IMG/VR virus record: IMGVR_UViG_3300020429_000016
Location: 1-21,681 of that record
Direction: 5' to 3' (one strand)
Length of the DNA stretch: 21,681 nt
Origin: a virus
Below the pieces are notes generated by a model that made no database searches, was not told the DNA's origin, and saw only the letters and a program-made list of their open reading frames with translations. Positions 5,019 through 21,681 of this stretch are shown here, piece after piece. The translations under genes and the position numbers were made by a program. Each line of letters opens with the position of its first letter. Within the stretch, counting starts at the first letter, position 1.

Positions 5019-6198
5019 CCTGATTGACCGACCGCTGCTCATTTCCAGCGCAGAACTGGAAAACATGCTGAATCCGGAGGCGTTGGAGACGAAGTGGGGC
5101 AGTCGGCTTGCAAATACCTGGCTGGTGAAAAAGCGCGGAAGCGTTGCCATTCTCCCTATCCATGGGGCGATTTCAAGATTCGACAGTTATATGAACTGGA
5201 TCCGGGGCGGGACTGCTACCGAGGATATTGCCAGGGACTTTGCTGCCGCCCAGGATGATTACGGGATTAAGGCCATTATTCTTGACTTTGACACGCCGGG
5301 TGGTGATGCCAGGGCAATCCATGAATGCGCCGAGATGATCCGCAATTCGAAAAAGCCAGTTTTCGCATATGTCGGTGGGCAGTGTGCCTCCGGCGGGATC
5401 TGGCTGGCGTCCGCCTGTGACGAGATTGTCACGGATAAGATCGCCGAGATGGGATCCCTGGGCGTTGTTTTCGGATATCAGCAAACCGGATCAAAAACCA
5501 TTGAGATTGTGTCCTCAAACGCACCCAAAAAACGGCTTTCCCCAGACTCAGAAGAGGGCCGGATGGAGATCCAGCAGAGGGCGGATGACCTGGAGGCGGT
5601 TTTCATTTCAAAGGTCGCCGAGTACCGGGGCCTGAAAGAAGAACAAGTAAAAAGCGATTTCGGCCAGGGCGGAATGATGATCGCTGAGAAAGCCATTAAG
5701 GCCGGGATGGCTGATAGATTTGGAAGCCTTGAGGGACTCATTGAGGAACTTCAGGCGAAACACTCAAGCAACGGAGTAAGCACTATGGGACTTAAAACAG
5801 ACCTGAGAGCGTTGGTTTCCGGGAAAGAAGACTCCGAAATTGAGGCGGCATTCGCCGCACTCGGATTTTTCCCGAAAACCGAGGGTGATGCACCCGACAT
5901 TGACAACATCAAGGCAGAATCACTGGCCACCGGCAAAGAAGAAGGCGAAGCGTCTGCAAAAACAGCCGAGGCCGAACGGGTGGCGGCTGTTATGGAGAAG
6001 GCGCAGATTGCAAGGGTTTCAAACCCGAAGTTTATCGCCGAACTCCTGACCCTTTCCCCCGAAGATGCCGGACAGAAGATTCTTGATGCACAGGCGGACG
6101 CTTCTGCGAGTCAGGAAATTTTCTCAACCGTAAACCCCATGTCCAACGGCGGCGGCAACGCACTCGTTGAGGACGCAAAGAAAAGAGCGGAGGCGTAA
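5011..6198 (+). CDS. Capsid maturation protease, S49/SppA family (gpC-like), with scaffold-like C terminus
   Basis: This 395-residue protein combines an S49 serine protease with a helical, charged C-terminal region, like lambda gpC, which is processed with the scaffold during head maturation. Core motifs are AILPIHGAI, LDFDTPGGD, and GGQCASGGIWLAS with the probable nucleophile S127, followed by EMGSLGVVF. The Ser/Lys dyad base is probably K173 or K174 in NAPKKRLSP, the spacing expected from gpC. The ATG at 5011 follows GGGAGGGGAAG. An upstream in-frame start at 4939 would only overlap the portal gene. Residues 259-395 are alanine- and glutamate-rich and may also be made separately from an internal start. 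Confidence 0.92.
   Translation: MNSLIDRPLLISSAELENMLNPEALETKWGSRLANTWLVKKRGSVAILPIHGAISRFDSYMNWIRGGTATEDIARDFAAAQDDYGIKAIILDFDTPGGDARAIHECAEMIRNSKKPVFAYVGGQCASGGIWLASACDEIVTDKIAEMGSLGVVFGYQQTGSKTIEIVSSNAPKKRLSPDSEEGRMEIQQRADDLEAVFISKVAEYRGLKEEQVKSDFGQGGMMIAEKAIKAGMADRFGSLEGLIEELQAKHSSNGVSTMGLKTDLRALVSGKEDSEIEAAFAALGFFPKTEGDAPDIDNIKAESLATGKEEGEASAKTAEAERVAAVMEKAQIARVSNPKFIAELLTLSPEDAGQKILDAQADASASQEIFSTVNPMSNGGGNALVEDAKKRAEA
5785..6198 (+). CDS. Probable internally initiated scaffold (Nu3-like)
   Basis: An in-frame ATG at 5785 is preceded by GGAG (5773-5776) with an eight-base spacer, placed exactly where the protease domain ends. The product would be 137 residues, mostly charged and helical (for example EAERVAAVMEKAQIARV), as expected for a head scaffold. 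Lambda makes Nu3 from an internal start in gene C, so a nested gene is the expected arrangement for this family. The call depends on that analogy and the visible ribosome site. No independent homology was tested. Confidence 0.65.
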   Translation: MGLKTDLRALVSGKEDSEIEAAFAALGFFPKTEGDAPDIDNIKAESLATGKEEGEASAKTAEAERVAAVMEKAQIARVSNPKFIAELLTLSPEDAGQKILDAQADASASQEIFSTVNPMSNGGGNALVEDAKKRAEA

Positions 6199-13676: not shown

Positions 13677-14533
13677 TGCCCAAATCACTCACACCACAAA
13701 TTAAATCCCAAATGGATGCCGTCCAGAAACGGCCGGTGTTGATTTTTGAAATCGGCCTGCCGTCTCCGCTGAAGTTTGCCGCATATCGCACAAACATTTC
13801 TTTTCCAACTGGTGGGGCTGTTTATACGGCCAAGGCAATCAAGCTGTCAGGTTTGTCTTGGTCCCTGGAAGGACAAATCAACCGGATCACCTGCAAGTTT
13901 GACAATACAGCCAGGGACATGGCCGCGTATGCTTCAACCTTTGATTTTAGAGGTAGATCTCTGGTGGTGAAGAGGATCTATCTTGATGCGCTTGACAGTG
14001 CTTTGAACTACAAGGAGGTTTTCAGGGGACACCTTGAAACACCGTCTGGCCTTGATCAAAAATGGATGACGGTTTCTGCGACTGCCGGCAAGCCCTTATA
14101 CAAAAAGGCCTTGAATTTTGCCTATCAACGACAGTGCCCTTGGGACTTCGGCGATGACAATTGCAATACGGATGGGCATGCAGATTTGTCGATGCTTACG
14201 CAGACCGGGACGGCTGACTCCGGGACCACCTCCACTTTGACTTGTTCTACACTTTCTTCTGTGGATGGTGAGTGGAATGATGGCGCGATTAAGATAACGA
14301 AAGCGGGAATTGAATATCCCCGCACAGTGAAAAGCTATGATGGCACCACTAAAACCGTCACCATCGATGTTGAATTGCCTGTGACAATAGATTCGTCAAC
14401 CACGTTCCAGGTGTGGCGAGGGTGCGACAAAACCCATGATACGTGCCTCAACAATAAACCAGGCGGCCCGACAAACGACAATTCACACAATTTTGGTGGG
14501 TGCATACACATTACACAGGATGCTGATCAATGA
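13676..14533 (+). CDS. Tail tip protein gpL-like (BR0599 family) with Fe-S type cysteines
   Basis: This 285-residue protein belongs to the tip-base family that includes lambda gpL and the BR0599/DUF2163 group. The N-terminal half is the strand-rich domain (KRPVLIFEIGLPSPLKFAAY, ISFPTGGAVYTAKAIKLSG, VFRGHLETPSGLDQKWMTVS). Cysteines at C154 and C163 (x8) and C250 and C257 (x6) reproduce the lambda gpL spacings, where as I recall these residues bind a 4Fe-4S cluster, and C276 is a fifth. Between the pairs lies an extra beta-rich segment of roughly 65 residues compared with lambda. The C-terminal GCDKTHDTC..NFGGC resembles the family end motif. It overlaps the next gene by ATGA. Confidence 0.85.
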   Translation: MPKSLTPQIKSQMDAVQKRPVLIFEIGLPSPLKFAAYRTNISFPTGGAVYTAKAIKLSGLSWSLEGQINRITCKFDNTARDMAAYASTFDFRGRSLVVKRIYLDALDSALNYKEVFRGHLETPSGLDQKWMTVSATAGKPLYKKALNFAYQRQCPWDFGDDNCNTDGHADLSMLTQTGTADSGTTSTLTCSTLSSVDGEWNDGAIKITKAGIEYPRTVKSYDGTTKTVTIDVELPVTIDSSTTFQVWRGCDKTHDTCLNNKPGGPTNDNSHNFGGCIHITQDADQ

Positions 14534-14928
14534 TTAGAAAAATGACCGTTGAAGATATTGCCAAGATTCTCAAGCTTGAGGACGATGTTTTTGAAACCGT
14601 CTTCCATTGCACAATCGGTGAGTGGGTTCAATTTCTTGCTCGGAACGTTGAGAACGATAATTTTCTGATGCTGGGGGTGTTTAGCGAGGATGTGCTTGCT
14701 GGATACATCGTTTGTAGCTCATCGGTTTTTCCGCCGGTCAGCTATCATGTTGGCATCCTCTATTATGTGGGCACCGGGGAGGATAACGCCGCAAAGGTAT
14801 TGCCTGAAATAAAAAAGTTTGCCCAGGGAAAAAATGCAAATTCAATCCGATTTATCACCCGCAAACCGGAGGCTTTTTCAAAATACGGCTTTATAATTAC
14901 TGCAAGCTTAATGGAGATGGCGGTATAA
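14530..14928 (+). CDS. GNAT-fold-like protein at the tail tip locus
   Basis: This 132-residue protein reads like a small GNAT acetyltransferase fold: MIRKMTVEDIAKILKLEDDV at the start, a strand with a turn (FLMLGVFSEDVLAGYIVCSS), a long helix (NAAKVLPEIKKFAQGKNANS), then the strand IRFITRKPEAFSKYGFIITA. The acetyl-CoA loop that is normally R/Q-x-x-G-x-G/A is poorly kept here (YYVGTGEDNAAKVL), so enzyme activity is doubtful. It overlaps the gpL-like stop (ATGA) and ends one base before the J-like gene, exactly where lambda encodes gpK and gpI. A structural or assembly role at the tip is a reasonable inference, and modification of a tip protein is an alternative. Confidence 0.6.
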   Translation: MIRKMTVEDIAKILKLEDDVFETVFHCTIGEWVQFLARNVENDNFLMLGVFSEDVLAGYIVCSSSVFPPVSYHVGILYYVGTGEDNAAKVLPEIKKFAQGKNANSIRFITRKPEAFSKYGFIITASLMEMAV

Positions 14929-14929
14929 A

Positions 14930-17900
14930 ATGGGCGGTGCGGTTGATTGGGTAAAAGACCGGGTCGAGGATGCGTTTGACCTTGCCGTTGACGTTCTTGA
15001 TGTAGCTTTTGAATATTCCGGTGCCGGCCTTGTCCTTGATTTTATTTCTGACTCCCTTATGCCAGGTGTTCCGGATATGCCCAGTTCACCTACCTATACG
15101 GAATCAGACCGGGTTTTAAACACCATCAAAGAGGGGGTCCCGGTTTCCCGGTGCTATGGGCGATGCAAGATCGGCGGGAACAAACTTCGATTCAACGACT
15201 CGGATGACTCTGACCTGCGCATAATTGTCGGGCATTGTCGTGGTCCGGTTGCCGGTTTCGTGTCTATGCAAATCAACGATATTGACTGGGACGATTTAAC
15301 CGGAAACCATTCAAAAACGGAGTATATCGGGGATCGGACGCAGGTCTCGGATGATCGATTTACGACGCAGACCAGCGCATATCGAAGCATTGCTTATACA
15401 GCATTCACTTTCCAGAAAAACGACAAGCAGGTGGGACACAACCCAAATATTACAGGTGTGATGGATGGGCTGTTGTGTCCGCCTCTTGCCGGTGGGGCAG
15501 ATACTTTTACCCGTTGCCCTGGTGTCGCACTCTATGATTGGTACCTTAATGTTGAGGGATATACGCCTGATGAACTTGATCTGAACGCTTTTAAGTCCCT
15601 TGAGGCGCTTTGTGATGAGATACCAACCGGCGGGACGCTTCCCAGGTATCGGTTTGATTTCAATGTTGATTCCTCAGAAACCACCATGAATGATGCCAAA
15701 AAGCTGATCTGGTCTTCATTCAATGGTATGGTTGTTATGGATCAGGGCAAATTGAAGCCGGTATGGGATTCTGCCCAGATGGCGGACGGTGTCGGGGGGC
15801 TGACGGCCAAAACTGTCTCCCACGCATTTGACCTGGACAATATTGTAAAAAGGTCTTTTTCCTGGAAACCTGTGGAGCGGGCAAACGTGGTCCGTATCCA
15901 CTATAAAGACAGTGAAAACGACTATAAAACCTCATCTGTTGAGCTTCGGGACAAAGCCGATATTGCCGAGAATGGCGAAATTCTTTATGAGGAAAAGGCC
16001 TGGTACATTACAGACAGTGAAATAGCTTCACGCCGTTGCCGGTATAAATTTAACAAAAAACGATATCCGGATTTTAGCTGCACACTTTCTGCGTTGTCAG
16101 GGGCCGGCCACCTTGAACAATATGACCTGGTTACGGTCACACATGTTTTGCCGGGATGGACAGAAAAGCAGTTCATCGTCACAAATATCAGTGAAGATGA
16201 ACTTGGGCGGCCTAAGTTCTCCCTTGAGGCGTATTTCCCAGGGATCTATGACGATGCCCAGGCGGGTGAGCAGCCAAATTACGGAACAACTCTCCCCAGC
16301 CCATATAAAACTCCTGATGCGTCCACGGGTGTCACGGCCGCCGTGGTGTCCGTGGGTACGAATTATAATTTCGATGCCGTCCGGGTGGAGTTCACACCGC
16401 CGAATGATCCTTTCTATTCCTACTCTGAAGTCTATGCGTCAAAGGATGATGCCACCTATTATTATGTTGGGAAGAGTGACGGGTCTTCAGCTCTTACCTT
16501 CAACGCTCTTGGCGTCGTGTATGAACCGGGTGACACCTGTTACATAAAGCTTCGGAGCGTTTCTGAAAATGGGGTCCTTGGGCCGCTTCCGGCGCAGGCA
16601 GATACCTATGTTACGGTTCTTCCCACCATGCGCCTGGCTGGTTTTTATGCCGGTGGGGACAGTCTGTGGGGCGGGGCCTCAGCAATTGGAAATGCGGCCA
16701 CGAATATTGTTTTGGGGCGTCTTGCCAGCGTGCCAAAGTTGGCGTTGGGGCCGAGTGCGGATTCTATCACCGTTGGTGGGGCGCAGCCTGGCTTTATTGC
16801 AGACGGGACCGGCAGAATGTATGCCGGTAACGGTGCTTCAAAATATTTCAAGTGGGACGGTGACAATATCTCTTGGGCCGGGACGAATACGTCTCTTTCT
16901 CCTGGGGGGCTATTTACGGCCTTGTCGGCTGTTATTCAGGGAACGGTAACAGCAAGCGGCGGCGCAATTGGCGGGTGGAACATTGCCAACAACAAGATCA
17001 GCATCCCGGGTATTGAGCTTGACCAGGCCAACCAGCGGATACGGGCCTTCACCGGCTCGAATTATGTCGATATCACTCCGGACGGCATCACCGGGTATGA
17101 CTCCCAGATGGGAGTTGTTTTCAAATTGTCTACGGACGGTTCTCCCCCTGAGTTCTCAGCCGGCATCATAAAAGAGACTGTCTATAAGATGTACACCTCT
17201 GGTGTGATTCGGACCAGTGAAGATCCGGAAACAGAGGGTGGGCTGCTTATCAATAAAGATAGGTTGTCCGGGTACAATTCTGCAGGAAAGAAACTCTTGG
17301 ATTTTGTCTTTGGCGGTGACAACCAGGGGGATGCATATATCGGGGATTATGACAGTGGAAAATCCGGTCTGAAGTATGATCATTCGGCAGAGCTTTTGGA
17401 TTATCGTGGCCGAATGACCATCTCCAGCGGCAGTTCTGGATATGGTAATCTCGGAGATAAACCGTCAAGTTTATCTGGCATTAACCCGACTGAATACGCA
17501 ATGCTCACCAACAGCATTGAGACACATTTTTATAATGGTGTACCAACGCTATCGAATACTCCAGCCGTTGGCTGGACAACGACAGAGTTAAAAGAGGTTC
17601 ACAAGGGCGATCTTTATTACGATAAGGATTCTGGTTTTACGTATCGCTTTTTAGATGATGGGCAGGGTGGCTATGAATGGGTTAGAAATCCGGATTCAGA
17701 AATAGCCCTCGCTCTTCAGATGGCCGCTGACGCCCAAGACACTGCAGACGGCAAACGCAAAACCTACATACCTGGTGCCGACCCTATCCCACCTTATGAC
17801 CCAGGCGACCTGTGGGTCTATGATGCTGCTGGCGGGCTAAAACAATGCGTGGTTGCCAAACCATCCGGCGGAACCTATGCCGCATCTGACTGGGCCCTGG

Positions 17901-18196
17901 TCGGGGACAGTCCCAAAACAGTTTTTTCCTGGGACGGATCTGAAGCAATTAATACTCAGGCGACAGAGTCAACCGCAGATGCCTGGTCCTTTTCAATGGC
18001 AGAAGCATTTGAAGGAGCTGTCATTGAGATAGAGTTTGAAGACGGTTTTGCCGGTGACATAGAGGTTTCCTTGAACGGAGAAAACTTAACCACTGTTATT
18101 TACGACTGCGAAGGTGACGGTGGGGACGATGAAATAGGACACATCATAGACCTTGAAAACACAGATGGACAAATCATTGATATGGAGGCCCAATAA
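14930..18196 (+). CDS. Tail tip / host-contact protein, gpJ-like
   Basis: This 1088-residue protein is the probable central tip protein that closes the tail and carries receptor-contact domains. The N-terminal hub includes an amphipathic helix (about 13-43) and the VPVSRCYGRCKIGG segment near 69-82, a hallmark of this family. Residues about 240-410 (MNDAKKLIWSSFNGMVVMDQ, ANVVRIHYKD) correspond to the phage-tail_3 domain. A fibronectin III-like domain lies near 466-550. Residues about 560-860 hold collar-like beta repeats with GGAIGGWNIANNKI and VDITPDGITGY. A late module (PYDPGDLWV near 955) and a very acidic end follow. It is slightly shorter than lambda gpJ (1132). The ATG at 14930 lacks a strong ribosome site and is probably coupled. 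Confidence 0.88.
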   Translation: MGGAVDWVKDRVEDAFDLAVDVLDVAFEYSGAGLVLDFISDSLMPGVPDMPSSPTYTESDRVLNTIKEGVPVSRCYGRCKIGGNKLRFNDSDDSDLRIIVGHCRGPVAGFVSMQINDIDWDDLTGNHSKTEYIGDRTQVSDDRFTTQTSAYRSIAYTAFTFQKNDKQVGHNPNITGVMDGLLCPPLAGGADTFTRCPGVALYDWYLNVEGYTPDELDLNAFKSLEALCDEIPTGGTLPRYRFDFNVDSSETTMNDAKKLIWSSFNGMVVMDQGKLKPVWDSAQMADGVGGLTAKTVSHAFDLDNIVKRSFSWKPVERANVVRIHYKDSENDYKTSSVELRDKADIAENGEILYEEKAWYITDSEIASRRCRYKFNKKRYPDFSCTLSALSGAGHLEQYDLVTVTHVLPGWTEKQFIVTNISEDELGRPKFSLEAYFPGIYDDAQAGEQPNYGTTLPSPYKTPDASTGVTAAVVSVGTNYNFDAVRVEFTPPNDPFYSYSEVYASKDDATYYYVGKSDGSSALTFNALGVVYEPGDTCYIKLRSVSENGVLGPLPAQADTYVTVLPTMRLAGFYAGGDSLWGGASAIGNAATNIVLGRLASVPKLALGPSADSITVGGAQPGFIADGTGRMYAGNGASKYFKWDGDNISWAGTNTSLSPGGLFTALSAVIQGTVTASGGAIGGWNIANNKISIPGIELDQANQRIRAFTGSNYVDITPDGITGYDSQMGVVFKLSTDGSPPEFSAGIIKETVYKMYTSGVIRTSEDPETEGGLLINKDRLSGYNSAGKKLLDFVFGGDNQGDAYIGDYDSGKSGLKYDHSAELLDYRGRMTISSGSSGYGNLGDKPSSLSGINPTEYAMLTNSIETHFYNGVPTLSNTPAVGWTTTELKEVHKGDLYYDKDSGFTYRFLDDGQGGYEWVRNPDSEIALALQMAADAQDTADGKRKTYIPGADPIPPYDPGDLWVYDAAGGLKQCVVAKPSGGTYAASDWALVGDSPKTVFSWDGSEAINTQATESTADAWSFSMAEAFEGAVIEIEFEDGFAGDIEVSLNGENLTTVIYDCEGDGGDDEIGHIIDLENTDGQIIDMEAQ

Positions 18197-19644
18197 TGGC
18201 TAAATCATCATTTTTACCAATAAGTAAAACAGAAGCTGAAAATAGCTCTTACGTGGGTCTTGACCGTGAGGTTATTGTCGTTAAAAAAGCGGACGACAGC
18301 AGGACCATGGCTGTTCACAACGGTGTGGATGCAGGTGGGTTTATTCTCGGGGCATCTGAATTGGCCGCTTGCGAGGAAGCTCAAGCGGCAGCGGAGGCAG
18401 CAGCCCAAGATATAGCAAACGCCTTGACTGTAGGGTCCAATCCCATTGGTTTGTATGTTAACGACACTGGTCTCGGTGTAATGGCCGACCCGGATAATCT
18501 TTTTGATGTCCGTGACACAGGGGCTGGCAGGGGTGGTGTTGCAGTAGTTGACACAATCAATGGGGCCACCCTAAATCTTTATAAATGGCAAGGAACAAGT
18601 ACTAATTATGATGTTTGGAGTTTTAACACCAGCGGGAATGGTAAACTCTCTCTATTTTATGATTCTGATTCTACAAGAGATCTATCTAAGTCTACCGGAC
18701 ATATTGTAACATTTACCCCTACTGGTTTTGGTTCTGGGACGGATACCCCAGAGGCTCCAGTCCATATGGAGGGGATAGGATCAAGCACGATTATGGGCAG
18801 CGGGTTCCTTGGTTATGTTAAATCCACAGATAATTCCAGCTACGCTGAAATTCTGTTTGGTGGTAAAGATTCAAGTGGGGTGGGTCGTACTGGGGCCATT
18901 GGTTTTGATCCCGATAAAAATCTAACATATTTAGCTAACGGCCTTGTAGCTGGAATCGGGGTTGATGCCTCGGGTTATGTCCAGATGGGAACTTTCTCCG
19001 CAACCGGAGCAACATCAGGGTCCCGATTTGTGGAATCAGGTAGACGATGGGATGTCAGTGCGAGTATTGCAGTGGCAACGTATGCTAATTTTTACAATAC
19101 CTTTGGTTTGGTCGGTAGGATCAGATCCAACGATAATTCTGTTGCTTTTGAGACCTTATCCGACTATCGAGCTAAAGAAAATCTCAGGGCCATCACGAAT
19201 TCATGGGACTATCTTCTGTCCCTTAAGCCCTATTGGGGCAACTTCAAATCTGACCCCGACAAAAAAGATATTTCAATGTTCGTGGCCCATGAGCTTCAAG
19301 AAATTATTCCAGAAGCCGTATCCGGTACCAAGGACGGAATGAGGACCGAAGAATACGAAATTTCCCCTGCCGTTTATGAAACCATTGTGGTTCCCGCCAT
19401 TGAAGAAGAATTGGACGAGGAAGGCAATGTCATCGTCGAAGCACAGCCGGAAACAACAGAACAGGTGCTTATCTCTGAGGCAGTTATGAGAACCAGGGAA
19501 GTCCCTGATTACCAGGGTGTGGATCAGTCCAAGGTGGTCCCATTAATCACTGCGGCTCTCCAAGACGCAATTAAAACTATTAAATCTCAGGCCATCACCC
19601 TTGAGGGCCTGAATAAACGAATCGCTGTCTTTGAGGTAGCATAA
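18196..19644 (+). CDS. Tail fibre with C-terminal S74 intramolecular chaperone
   Basis: This 482-residue fibre begins with a short head region, an alanine-rich coiled segment (ACEEAQAAAEAAAQDIANAL, about 58-77) and beta-rich shaft repeats. The C-terminal S74 domain starts at S322-D-Y-R-A-K327. Known members cleave before this serine once the trimer has folded, removing the chaperone of about 160 residues. The later VAHELQEIIPEAV (H365) and QGVDQSKVVPLITAALQDAI motifs confirm the family. Between them, about residues 380-438 form an acidic insert (EYEISPAVYETIVVPAIEEE and onward), longer than in compact S74 domains. It follows the J-like gene by TAATG and probably forms side or tip fibres for host recognition. 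Confidence 0.9.
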   Translation: MAKSSFLPISKTEAENSSYVGLDREVIVVKKADDSRTMAVHNGVDAGGFILGASELAACEEAQAAAEAAAQDIANALTVGSNPIGLYVNDTGLGVMADPDNLFDVRDTGAGRGGVAVVDTINGATLNLYKWQGTSTNYDVWSFNTSGNGKLSLFYDSDSTRDLSKSTGHIVTFTPTGFGSGTDTPEAPVHMEGIGSSTIMGSGFLGYVKSTDNSSYAEILFGGKDSSGVGRTGAIGFDPDKNLTYLANGLVAGIGVDASGYVQMGTFSATGATSGSRFVESGRRWDVSASIAVATYANFYNTFGLVGRIRSNDNSVAFETLSDYRAKENLRAITNSWDYLLSLKPYWGNFKSDPDKKDISMFVAHELQEIIPEAVSGTKDGMRTEEYEISPAVYETIVVPAIEEELDEEGNVIVEAQPETTEQVLISEAVMRTREVPDYQGVDQSKVVPLITAALQDAIKTIKSQAITLEGLNKRIAVFEVA

Positions 19645-19856: not shown

Positions 19857-21681
19857 ATGGCGATTACAAAAACCATATCAGCCAAAGCCCTTGTCTCTGG
19901 CACAAATGTTCTGAAAATCTGGACCACAGGAACTAATGCCGGAACCATTAAAAAAATTCGGGTGATTAAATCCAAAGAGGCCGGAGATATTGCAAAGGGG
20001 GTAAATCTCCCTGGCACTGTTGGGGCCGTTGCCATCCCTGCTGGCATGTCTAATGCTCTTGCCGAGAAGTTTACCAAGGCCTGGTCACAGGAAGGGGCTG
20101 ATGTCACGAGTGAGAACACATCCGCCGACACCGCAAAGGTCAACGGCCAGGATGCCTCTGTCGTTCAGCAGAATGCGGCCAATGCAAAAGCCGCCGTTGA
20201 CGCTCAGGCAGAGGACGGTCAGATCTCCCCGGCGGAAAAAGCAGATTGGCGGATCAATAAGCCGATTATGGAGAGGAATTACAACGAGGCCGCCACATAT
20301 GCCTTTCAACTGGGTGTTAATCATTCTGACCTGGACACCAAATGGGCTGCCCTGGTGACGTACCTTGAGGGGGCCGGCGTGTGGTCTTCTCCATATTCGA
20401 CCTACATCATCAGCAACAACGAGCTTGTCGCCAAAAATGACGACTATTATGCGGCCCTGTTGGCAGTTGAGCAGGCCTGCATAGATCAGGCGGCAGATGA
20501 TGCAAAGAACTCAGCAATATCTACCGCGGCAACTGATGCCACCAACAAAGCGAACACCGCTCAGTCTGATGCAGAGGCCACGGCCAGGTCGGAAATAACG
20601 GGCAGGGGTCTGGATGCCACGGGTAATTTCATCGGAACCGTTTCTGGCGTATCCGCAGCAACAGTAAAAAACCAAGCTGCTGACGGCAGTGCGGCGAAGA
20701 GCAAGCTTGATACTGATGTCGGAGCTGGGACGGTGGAAACAACCGGTGGGTCACAAAGCAAAGTTAATTCGCGATTGTCCGGCACTGAAAAGAACAATCT
20801 GGTGGTTGGGAAATTACCGAACGGCAACAACAATTCCGCTGACAATATTTCCGAATCGACTGTCCGAAAATGGGCCGGGGAATCCGGGGCCGATAAAACC
20901 GCTGGGAAATCCCTTTCAGTCCTTACAGACAAAAAAACATCGGTACTAACAGACGATGACGCCCTGGGTGAAACCGCTCTTTGGGTGGGTGTGTCAGGCA
21001 CTGGGAGGCCGGAAGACAATGCCACAAAGGGAGCAAGGGCAGGTGATGACCTAAAGGATTTTGCCGGGGTTGTCCTTGGGGACTCTGATATCAAAAATGC
21101 TGAGGTCTCAATTACGTCCAGTGGCCAACTTCAAGGAGCTGGGGGCGGACAGGTCACCCCGGACGGCATTGGAGCCGAAACCCCAACGACTGTCCAACCA
21201 AAGATTAATCAAGCTCAAATCAACGCCGAAACCAATGCAGCGGCATATACGGAAGGGTGGTCGGAGCAAGGAGCGACAAATGATTCTGGTTGGAGGGCCT
21301 CTGCGGATACAACCCGAATAGATGCTGGAAAGGTTTGGGCAGGGTCATCTTTGACTATTGGGAATTTGGATGGGGTATCAGATTTCTTCAGGGCAACACC
21401 TACAGAGGTAGGACTATGGAGGTATTTGGCGGGGCAGCATCGTTTATATACATCCCTGGTTCAACATATTGTTGGGGAAGCTGAATCAGGAGTTCTTACA
21501 GAGATAAATGGTCCTGGTGGGACTCCGATTTATTTTAAAGACCAACCCAAGATTATTCTTTCTTTAAAGGACGCCCCCCTCTACAAAGCTGATTATGCCG
21601 GACAAGATCAGCACATTCGAATGTATCCAACAGATATTGAAGAATTTGCAACCAATCGGTGGAGATTTAAGCCTATTTGTG
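19857..21681 (+). CDS. Large tail fibre / J-C-terminal-like protein, partial at the 3' end
   Basis: An ATG at 19857 opens a frame without stop to the window edge, so at least 608 residues are encoded and the C terminus is missing. After a short beta-rich head (about 1-75), residues 120-210 contain DGQISPAEKADW followed by helices, the linker seen in many tip and fibre proteins. An alanine-rich coiled region follows (about 212-250). Around 383-393 GRPEDNATKGA, then VTPDGIGAE and INQAQINAETNAAAYTEGW, recall linker motifs of lambda-J-like central fibres. The last part has aromatic, strand-rich sequence. No ribosome site is obvious, so translation may be coupled to the preceding gene. Role: second tip or fibre component, probably host binding. 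Confidence 0.75.
   Translation, partial: MAITKTISAKALVSGTNVLKIWTTGTNAGTIKKIRVIKSKEAGDIAKGVNLPGTVGAVAIPAGMSNALAEKFTKAWSQEGADVTSENTSADTAKVNGQDASVVQQNAANAKAAVDAQAEDGQISPAEKADWRINKPIMERNYNEAATYAFQLGVNHSDLDTKWAALVTYLEGAGVWSSPYSTYIISNNELVAKNDDYYAALLAVEQACIDQAADDAKNSAISTAATDATNKANTAQSDAEATARSEITGRGLDATGNFIGTVSGVSAATVKNQAADGSAAKSKLDTDVGAGTVETTGGSQSKVNSRLSGTEKNNLVVGKLPNGNNNSADNISESTVRKWAGESGADKTAGKSLSVLTDKKTSVLTDDDALGETALWVGVSGTGRPEDNATKGARAGDDLKDFAGVVLGDSDIKNAEVSITSSGQLQGAGGGQVTPDGIGAETPTTVQPKINQAQINAETNAAAYTEGWSEQGATNDSGWRASADTTRIDAGKVWAGSSLTIGNLDGVSDFFRATPTEVGLWRYLAGQHRLYTSLVQHIVGEAESGVLTEINGPGGTPIYFKDQPKIILSLKDAPLYKADYAGQDQHIRMYPTDIEEFATNRWRFKPIC

Follow-up and report, generated by a model that had tools for sequence, protein, structure and literature searches.

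A GNAT-fold protein without the canonical cofactor motif in the hub–J slot of a phage tail-tip module

An NlpC/P60 protein encoded beside the hub gene of a phage tail is usually viewed as a peptidoglycan cutter for entry. The closest described systems to the locus analysed here are the tail-tip modules of RcGTA (g12-g15), the roseophages RDJL Phi 1 and R4C, and the phiJL001 type, which have homologous hub and J proteins. These GTA-type modules share one order: tape measure, DUF2460, hub, a slot protein of about 130-150 aa, and the megatron or J (PMC7296036, PMC10276861). In RcGTA the slot is occupied by g14, a peptidase of 150 residues with a tentative location in the tail channel between the megatron iris and the C-terminus of the tape measure; deletion of g14 leads to empty heads without tails (PMC7296036). 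The slot protein therefore matters in assembly, beyond the cutting of the cell wall. R4C has a similar peptidase, which was left unmodelled (PMC10276861). The GTA-type modules have a single slot protein, NlpC/P60 or DUF6950, and none of the genes from hub to J is annotated as a separate gpI. Lambda, with the order L-K-I-J, has two genes, K and I, between L and J; gpI is a structural protein that binds gpJ as a trimeric plug, and gpK was not detected in virions by mass spectrometry (PMC10721106). In the open-access papers searched we found no description of a siphophage tail-tip lineage in which a GNAT protein consistently replaces NlpC/P60.

The locus lies on a 21.7-kb virus fragment from IMG/VR, analysed over its full length of 21,681 nucleotides and called the window below. 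Its head module is lambda-like, with a GpA terminase, a lambda-family portal, an S49 protease, capsid E and decoration protein D. The capsid protein shares 84 % identity with its counterpart in a Desulfobacterium sp. prophage, which suggests a related sulphate reducer as host. The tail genes run from the tape measure through a DUF2460-like gene, the hub, the slot gene and J to an S74-chaperone fibre (Table 1), so that the first five stand in the GTA-type order, with a weak DUF2460 match. As in lambda, an L-like hub and a J-like fibre flank the slot, whereas the window has one unrelated protein where lambda has two. The preliminary description had taken lambda as its yardstick, and the GTA-type module proved the better fit. 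The hub matches phrog_778 'tail assembly protein' (E 5.8e-20) and Phage_BR0599, and its residues C154, C163, C250 and C257 are invariant across the aligned hubs; J matches phrog_31 'central tail fiber J' (2.5e-25) and Phage-tail_3. The slot gene starts with ATG and overlaps the hub gene by ATGA (hub stop at 14533), and a single base separates the slot-gene stop from J, which begins at 14930. The limits of the gene, its 132 residues and both junctions had been given exactly in the preliminary description. A long ORF after the S74 fibre gene (19857-21680) exits the end of the window and is probably another fibre gene.

Table 1. Features of the tail module in the window, with the basis of each assignment.
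Feature	Position	Strand	Basis or remark
Tape measure protein, 785 aa	10963..13320	+	C-terminal third conserved with other GNAT modules
DUF2460-like minor tail protein, 118 aa	13320..13676	+	DUF2460 match weak (E 0.0059); conserved throughout the GNAT modules
Hub protein (gpL / BR0599 / phrog_778-like), 285 aa	13676..14533	+	Profile matches
GNAT-fold tail-tip slot protein, 132 aa	14530..14928	+	ORF; profile; predicted fold; purifying selection
Patch of strongest conservation in the slot protein (CTIGEWVQFL, residues 27-36), helix alpha2	14608..14637	+	Column counts, 12 members
Beta4-alpha3 loop of the slot protein, residues 80-86	14767..14787	+	No [QR]xxGx[GA] motif; sequence variable, with gaps, among the members
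J-like central tail fibre / megatron, 1088 aa	14930..18196	+	phrog_31, Phage-tail_3
Acidic N-terminal segment of J	14930..15085	+	Net charge -8 over the first 45 residues
S74-chaperone fibre	18196-19644		Directly after J

Searched alone, the 132-aa slot sequence gave nothing convincing in viral, genome, phage and plasmid collections, and neither the hub alone nor J alone gave a useful match in viral contigs. The first homologue of the slot protein was found in a Desulfobacterales genome (E 1e-12), immediately 3' of a homologous hub gene. An alignment of J from this genome and the window then led to the same module in eight viral contigs, and the alignment of their GNAT proteins led to further ones. 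The order hub-GNAT-J is present in 12 distinct phage tail modules, comprising the window and at least eleven relatives: L062 (a Desulfobacterales prophage in genome G468), L064, L065, L066/L067 (identical sequence from two samples, counted once), L068, L069, L070, L071, L076, L077 and L081. The relatives also share the wider order of tape measure, DUF2460, hub, slot gene and J.

For the single slot sequence, GNAT similarity was undetectable in Pfam and the PDB. In PHROGs, the acetyltransferase family phrog_1249 came up only at 0.073, and AlphaFold, given that one sequence, produced a model of low quality (pLDDT 47). A profile of the 12-member family, run against PDB sequences with hmmsearch, matched the DpA polyamine acetyltransferase significantly (8a9n, E 1.4e-5; 8a9o, E 5.4e-5), and the match spans residues 1-126 of the slot protein, i.e., its full length. 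Pfam Acetyltransf_1 came only to 0.11, under its cut-off. The AlphaFold model built from an 11-sequence alignment reached a pLDDT of 92.8 and a pTM of 0.85, with the order beta1-alpha1-alpha2-beta2-beta3-beta4-alpha3-beta5-alpha4. It has the central beta sheet of the GNAT fold, with beta4 and alpha3 arranged as in that fold; DSSP assigned neither beta6 nor beta7, and no strand after alpha4. At E<=0.001, Foldseek with this model gave 132 matches in the PDB; all 50 matches listed were GNAT-family or GNAT-like (probability 1.00, E down to 1.7e-6, TM-score up to 0.81). Most of the named viral structure matches were phage acetyltransferases, and the nearest solved relatives were aminoglycoside acetyltransferases and the DpA enzyme. 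By profile and predicted fold, membership of the slot protein in the GNAT superfamily is well supported.

In GNATs, the beta4-alpha3 loop with the motif [QR]xxGx[GA] binds the pyrophosphate of acetyl-CoA. This motif is absent from the loop in all 12 family members; one match in L067 sits past alpha3, outside the loop. The loop is also shortened in the family, 8a9n having extra residues there. The slot protein thus shares its fold and end-to-end profile similarity with the DpA and aminoglycoside acetyltransferases, but differs from them in the missing acetyl-CoA loop motif and in the location of its gene inside a tail-tip operon. Both the GNAT-like character and the degraded acetyl-CoA loop read from the window alone in the preliminary description were borne out by the family. 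Within the most conserved patch W32 is invariant (12/12), and Q34 and L36 are kept in 11/12; other conserved columns are Y59 and V61 in beta3 and P69 and S71 ahead of beta4, with Y59 and P69 also invariant. The slot genes of a close pair, L070 and L071, are under purifying selection (dN/dS about 0.2). Identities among the modules are 28-40% for the GNAT protein, compared with 50-57% for the hub and 49-66% for J. The GNAT protein therefore diverges fastest, as expected if no active site needs to be preserved.

From these alignments and the model, the fold of the slot protein seems to have been kept without canonical cofactor binding. A missing classical motif is no proof that catalysis has gone, as altered loops work in some GNATs. 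An unusual active acyltransferase could modify the hub, J or the tape measure at assembly, or a component of the envelope after ejection, and it would suit the intact fold of the model, the activity of the nearest solved relatives on small amines, and invariant columns such as W32, Y59 and P69. We nevertheless consider such an enzyme rather unlikely: the loop motif is missing throughout the family in a region that is variable and gapped, the protein diverges faster than hub and J do, and the model has no assigned strand after alpha4.

The position of the gene was examined across the modules. Every locus that the GNAT query retrieved by itself is situated between hub and J, the spacing from GNAT to J is -1 to +1 base in 10/10 modules measured, and the searches made gave no convincing family member outside the hub-J slot. 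Other candidates were rejected. The match in Erythrobacter phage L02 (E 0.06) falls within a protein of 1007 aa that is not in a tail slot; those in G411 and G639 (E 0.01-0.03) have no recognisable tail genes nearby; and the acyltransferase of Sulfitobacter phage NYA-2014a belongs to another family, phrog_4470. The tail-tip genes are joined to different heads, and the slot gene is inherited together with them. The window combines a GpA terminase, capsid E and a lambda-type portal; in G768 no window head gene was matched in the stretch compared by tblastn, and a survey of ORFs over the whole record lists other head genes; the head of G468 differs from that of the window except for a portal at 24 % identity.

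GNAT genes that serve in the takeover of the host are frequent in phages (PMC7824862), and in L070 a methylase gene adjoins the GNAT gene, as might be expected of a chance or moron-type insertion, i.e., a host-directed effector gene between tail genes without any tail function. The identical position in 12 distinct modules, the overlap or abutment with J in every one of the ten measured, the lack of convincing family members elsewhere in the searches made, and the fact that NlpC/P60 is missing exactly there make this explanation quite unlikely.

Some modules deviate in detail. The L070 gene is an N6/N4 DNA methylase gene between hub and GNAT (L070:4374-5606), with the GNAT gene still abutting J, and at the same position L071 has a 225-base gap between hub and GNAT, its GNAT gene likewise ending within one base of J. 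L068 has a frameshifted GNAT gene (5619-5873), and the hub of L077 (L077:5139-5996) is split by an in-frame stop (5588). Both may be either assembly errors or decay. The L068 copy counts against a tail-building role if that phage can do without the protein; an error in its contig would also explain it.

In phages with a hub or J like those of the window, the slot is held by an NlpC/P60 or DUF6950 protein. Among 26 slot proteins scanned, 25 match PF00877 and six match PF22262, in overlapping sets; as these proteins were preselected by a Cys-His pattern or annotation, the 25/26 is a check of identity and not a frequency. A frequency comes from the hub relatives, 23 of 26 of which have an NlpC-type protein in the slot or fused to it. 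Exceptions are Yonseivirus, where the slot consists of two small genes, and L026, L033 and L049, which have no recognisable NlpC gene. In L020, which has the closest hub beyond the GNAT group, the NlpC/P60 domain is fused to the N-terminus of J (L020:1589-4774).

Searches of whole records with PF00877 and PF22262, which succeed in the comparator phages, found neither domain in the window or in ten other GNAT-slot virus records; these include records of 38, 41, 45 and 101 kb, and the window and most others are fragments that may be incomplete. SLT was likewise absent from the GNAT-slot virus records searched, and the only Peptidase_M15_3 protein among them, about 3.5 kb downstream of J in L064, is probably an endolysin. 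G468 has a single NlpC gene, on a different contig from the GNAT module. The slot protein itself matches neither PF00877 nor PF22262 and has no papain-like Cys-His pattern. A highly diverged NlpC/P60 or DUF6950 protein would share the slot and be of similar size (about 130-150 aa). Profile-profile comparison with the 26 NlpC-slot proteins, however, gave a probability of 0.1 %, no scanned member had an NlpC/P60 match, and the confident model matches GNATs, so that this reading is refuted by fold and we regard it as extremely improbable.

The L-GNAT-J order of the preliminary description is thus a recurrent one, with no detectable NlpC/P60 in any virus record that has it (most of them fragments). 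Run as attempts at refutation, the fold search returned the GNAT fold and the whole-record search no gpK homologue, again in fragments for the most part. The proposed replacement of both gpK and gpI held in its first half. Judged by gene order and profile matches, the slot protein is a stand-in for the NlpC/P60 protein, i.e., in the gpK slot; a replacement of gpI is not demonstrable, since GTA-type modules have a single slot protein and no annotated gpI. Compared with those modules, the window differs in a GNAT-fold rather than NlpC/P60 slot protein, the GNAT-slot virus records in having no detectable NlpC/P60 or DUF6950, and their J in an N-terminus that is usually acidic.

Over the first 45 residues of J, the median net charge is -7 in GNAT phages and +1 in the compared NlpC phages, a contrast between groups of related sequences and not between independent events. 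In the compared NlpC-slot phages this N-terminus is mostly nearly neutral, A/G-rich and hydrophobic. A hydrophobic J N-terminus is also found in two exceptional GNAT phages, L062 and L077, whose GNAT proteins are 54 % identical to each other. These data bear on the idea that the slot protein supplies the plug function of lambda gpI in the tip lumen, rather than filling the gpK slot. Gene I lies between L and J, and its trimeric product, bound to gpJ, is a plug (PMC10721106), and the acidic J N-terminus of most GNAT phages may mean that plugging is arranged differently. Against this, related GTA-type modules have no separate annotated gpI and an NlpC/P60 protein in the slot, L062 and L077 retain the hydrophobic J N-terminus, and the GNAT protein has no hydrophobic plug-like segment beyond its predicted fold; a plug function is therefore unlikely. 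No gpI-like match was found for the slot protein of the window. For L062 and L077, GNAT subtype and J N-terminus seemed at first to vary together; over all pairs, the divergence of GNAT did not track that of the hub, the J core or the J N-terminus (partial correlations about 0.1). A tight pairwise interface of GNAT with hub or J is therefore unsupported, and none is claimed.

Drawing on alignments, the model and the analogy with RcGTA, we consider it moderately probable that the slot protein is a non-catalytic GNAT-fold pseudoenzyme with a dedicated role in the assembly or structure of the tail tip. It is probably a worn-down enzyme adopted as a tail-building part. Such a protein would fill the gene slot of the GTA-type NlpC/P60 protein and probably its assembly step too, binding the hub and/or J during tip building, and the slot's assembly task would now be done without cell-wall hydrolysis. 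Retention in the virion and a role as chaperone seem about equally plausible. More tentatively, a pseudo-acetyltransferase might have taken over an essential assembly role of NlpC/P60 in a long-tailed lineage, with wall cutting as a dispensable extra, which we regard as possible rather than probable; if so, the conserved task of the slot would be tip building. The replacement of NlpC/P60 by an unrelated and apparently cofactor-less fold offers a natural experiment that separates the assembly from the enzymatic roles of the slot, and adds a clear case of enzyme fold reuse in phage tails. It also raises the question of how GNAT-slot phages cross the cell wall without a recognisable hydrolase in the scanned tail genes.

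Enzyme folds within phage structural operons are not new, given the precedent of ORFS in the podophage Vibrio phage VpV262. This GNAT protein of phrog_1249 is likewise encoded inside a structural cluster, by tail and internal virion genes. VpV262 differs from the window in being a podophage whose GNAT gene adjoins genes of internal virion proteins, and the similarity of ORFS to the window family is weak. ORFS (L104:30042-30524) lies between the tail and internal virion genes, a position that resembles that of T7 gene 13. The small virion-assembly proteins T7 gp13 and P22 gp14 are like the slot protein in size and in location among virion genes; a relationship was not supported by sequence, as hhalign showed no detectable similarity. 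In L081, a 101-kb viral contig, the slot holds two tandem GNAT-fold genes (L081:5591-6450) and a large Laminin_G/ConA-like insertion is present in the L081 hub (L081:3253-5583); the second GNAT copy matches phrog_1249 at 2.8e-5.
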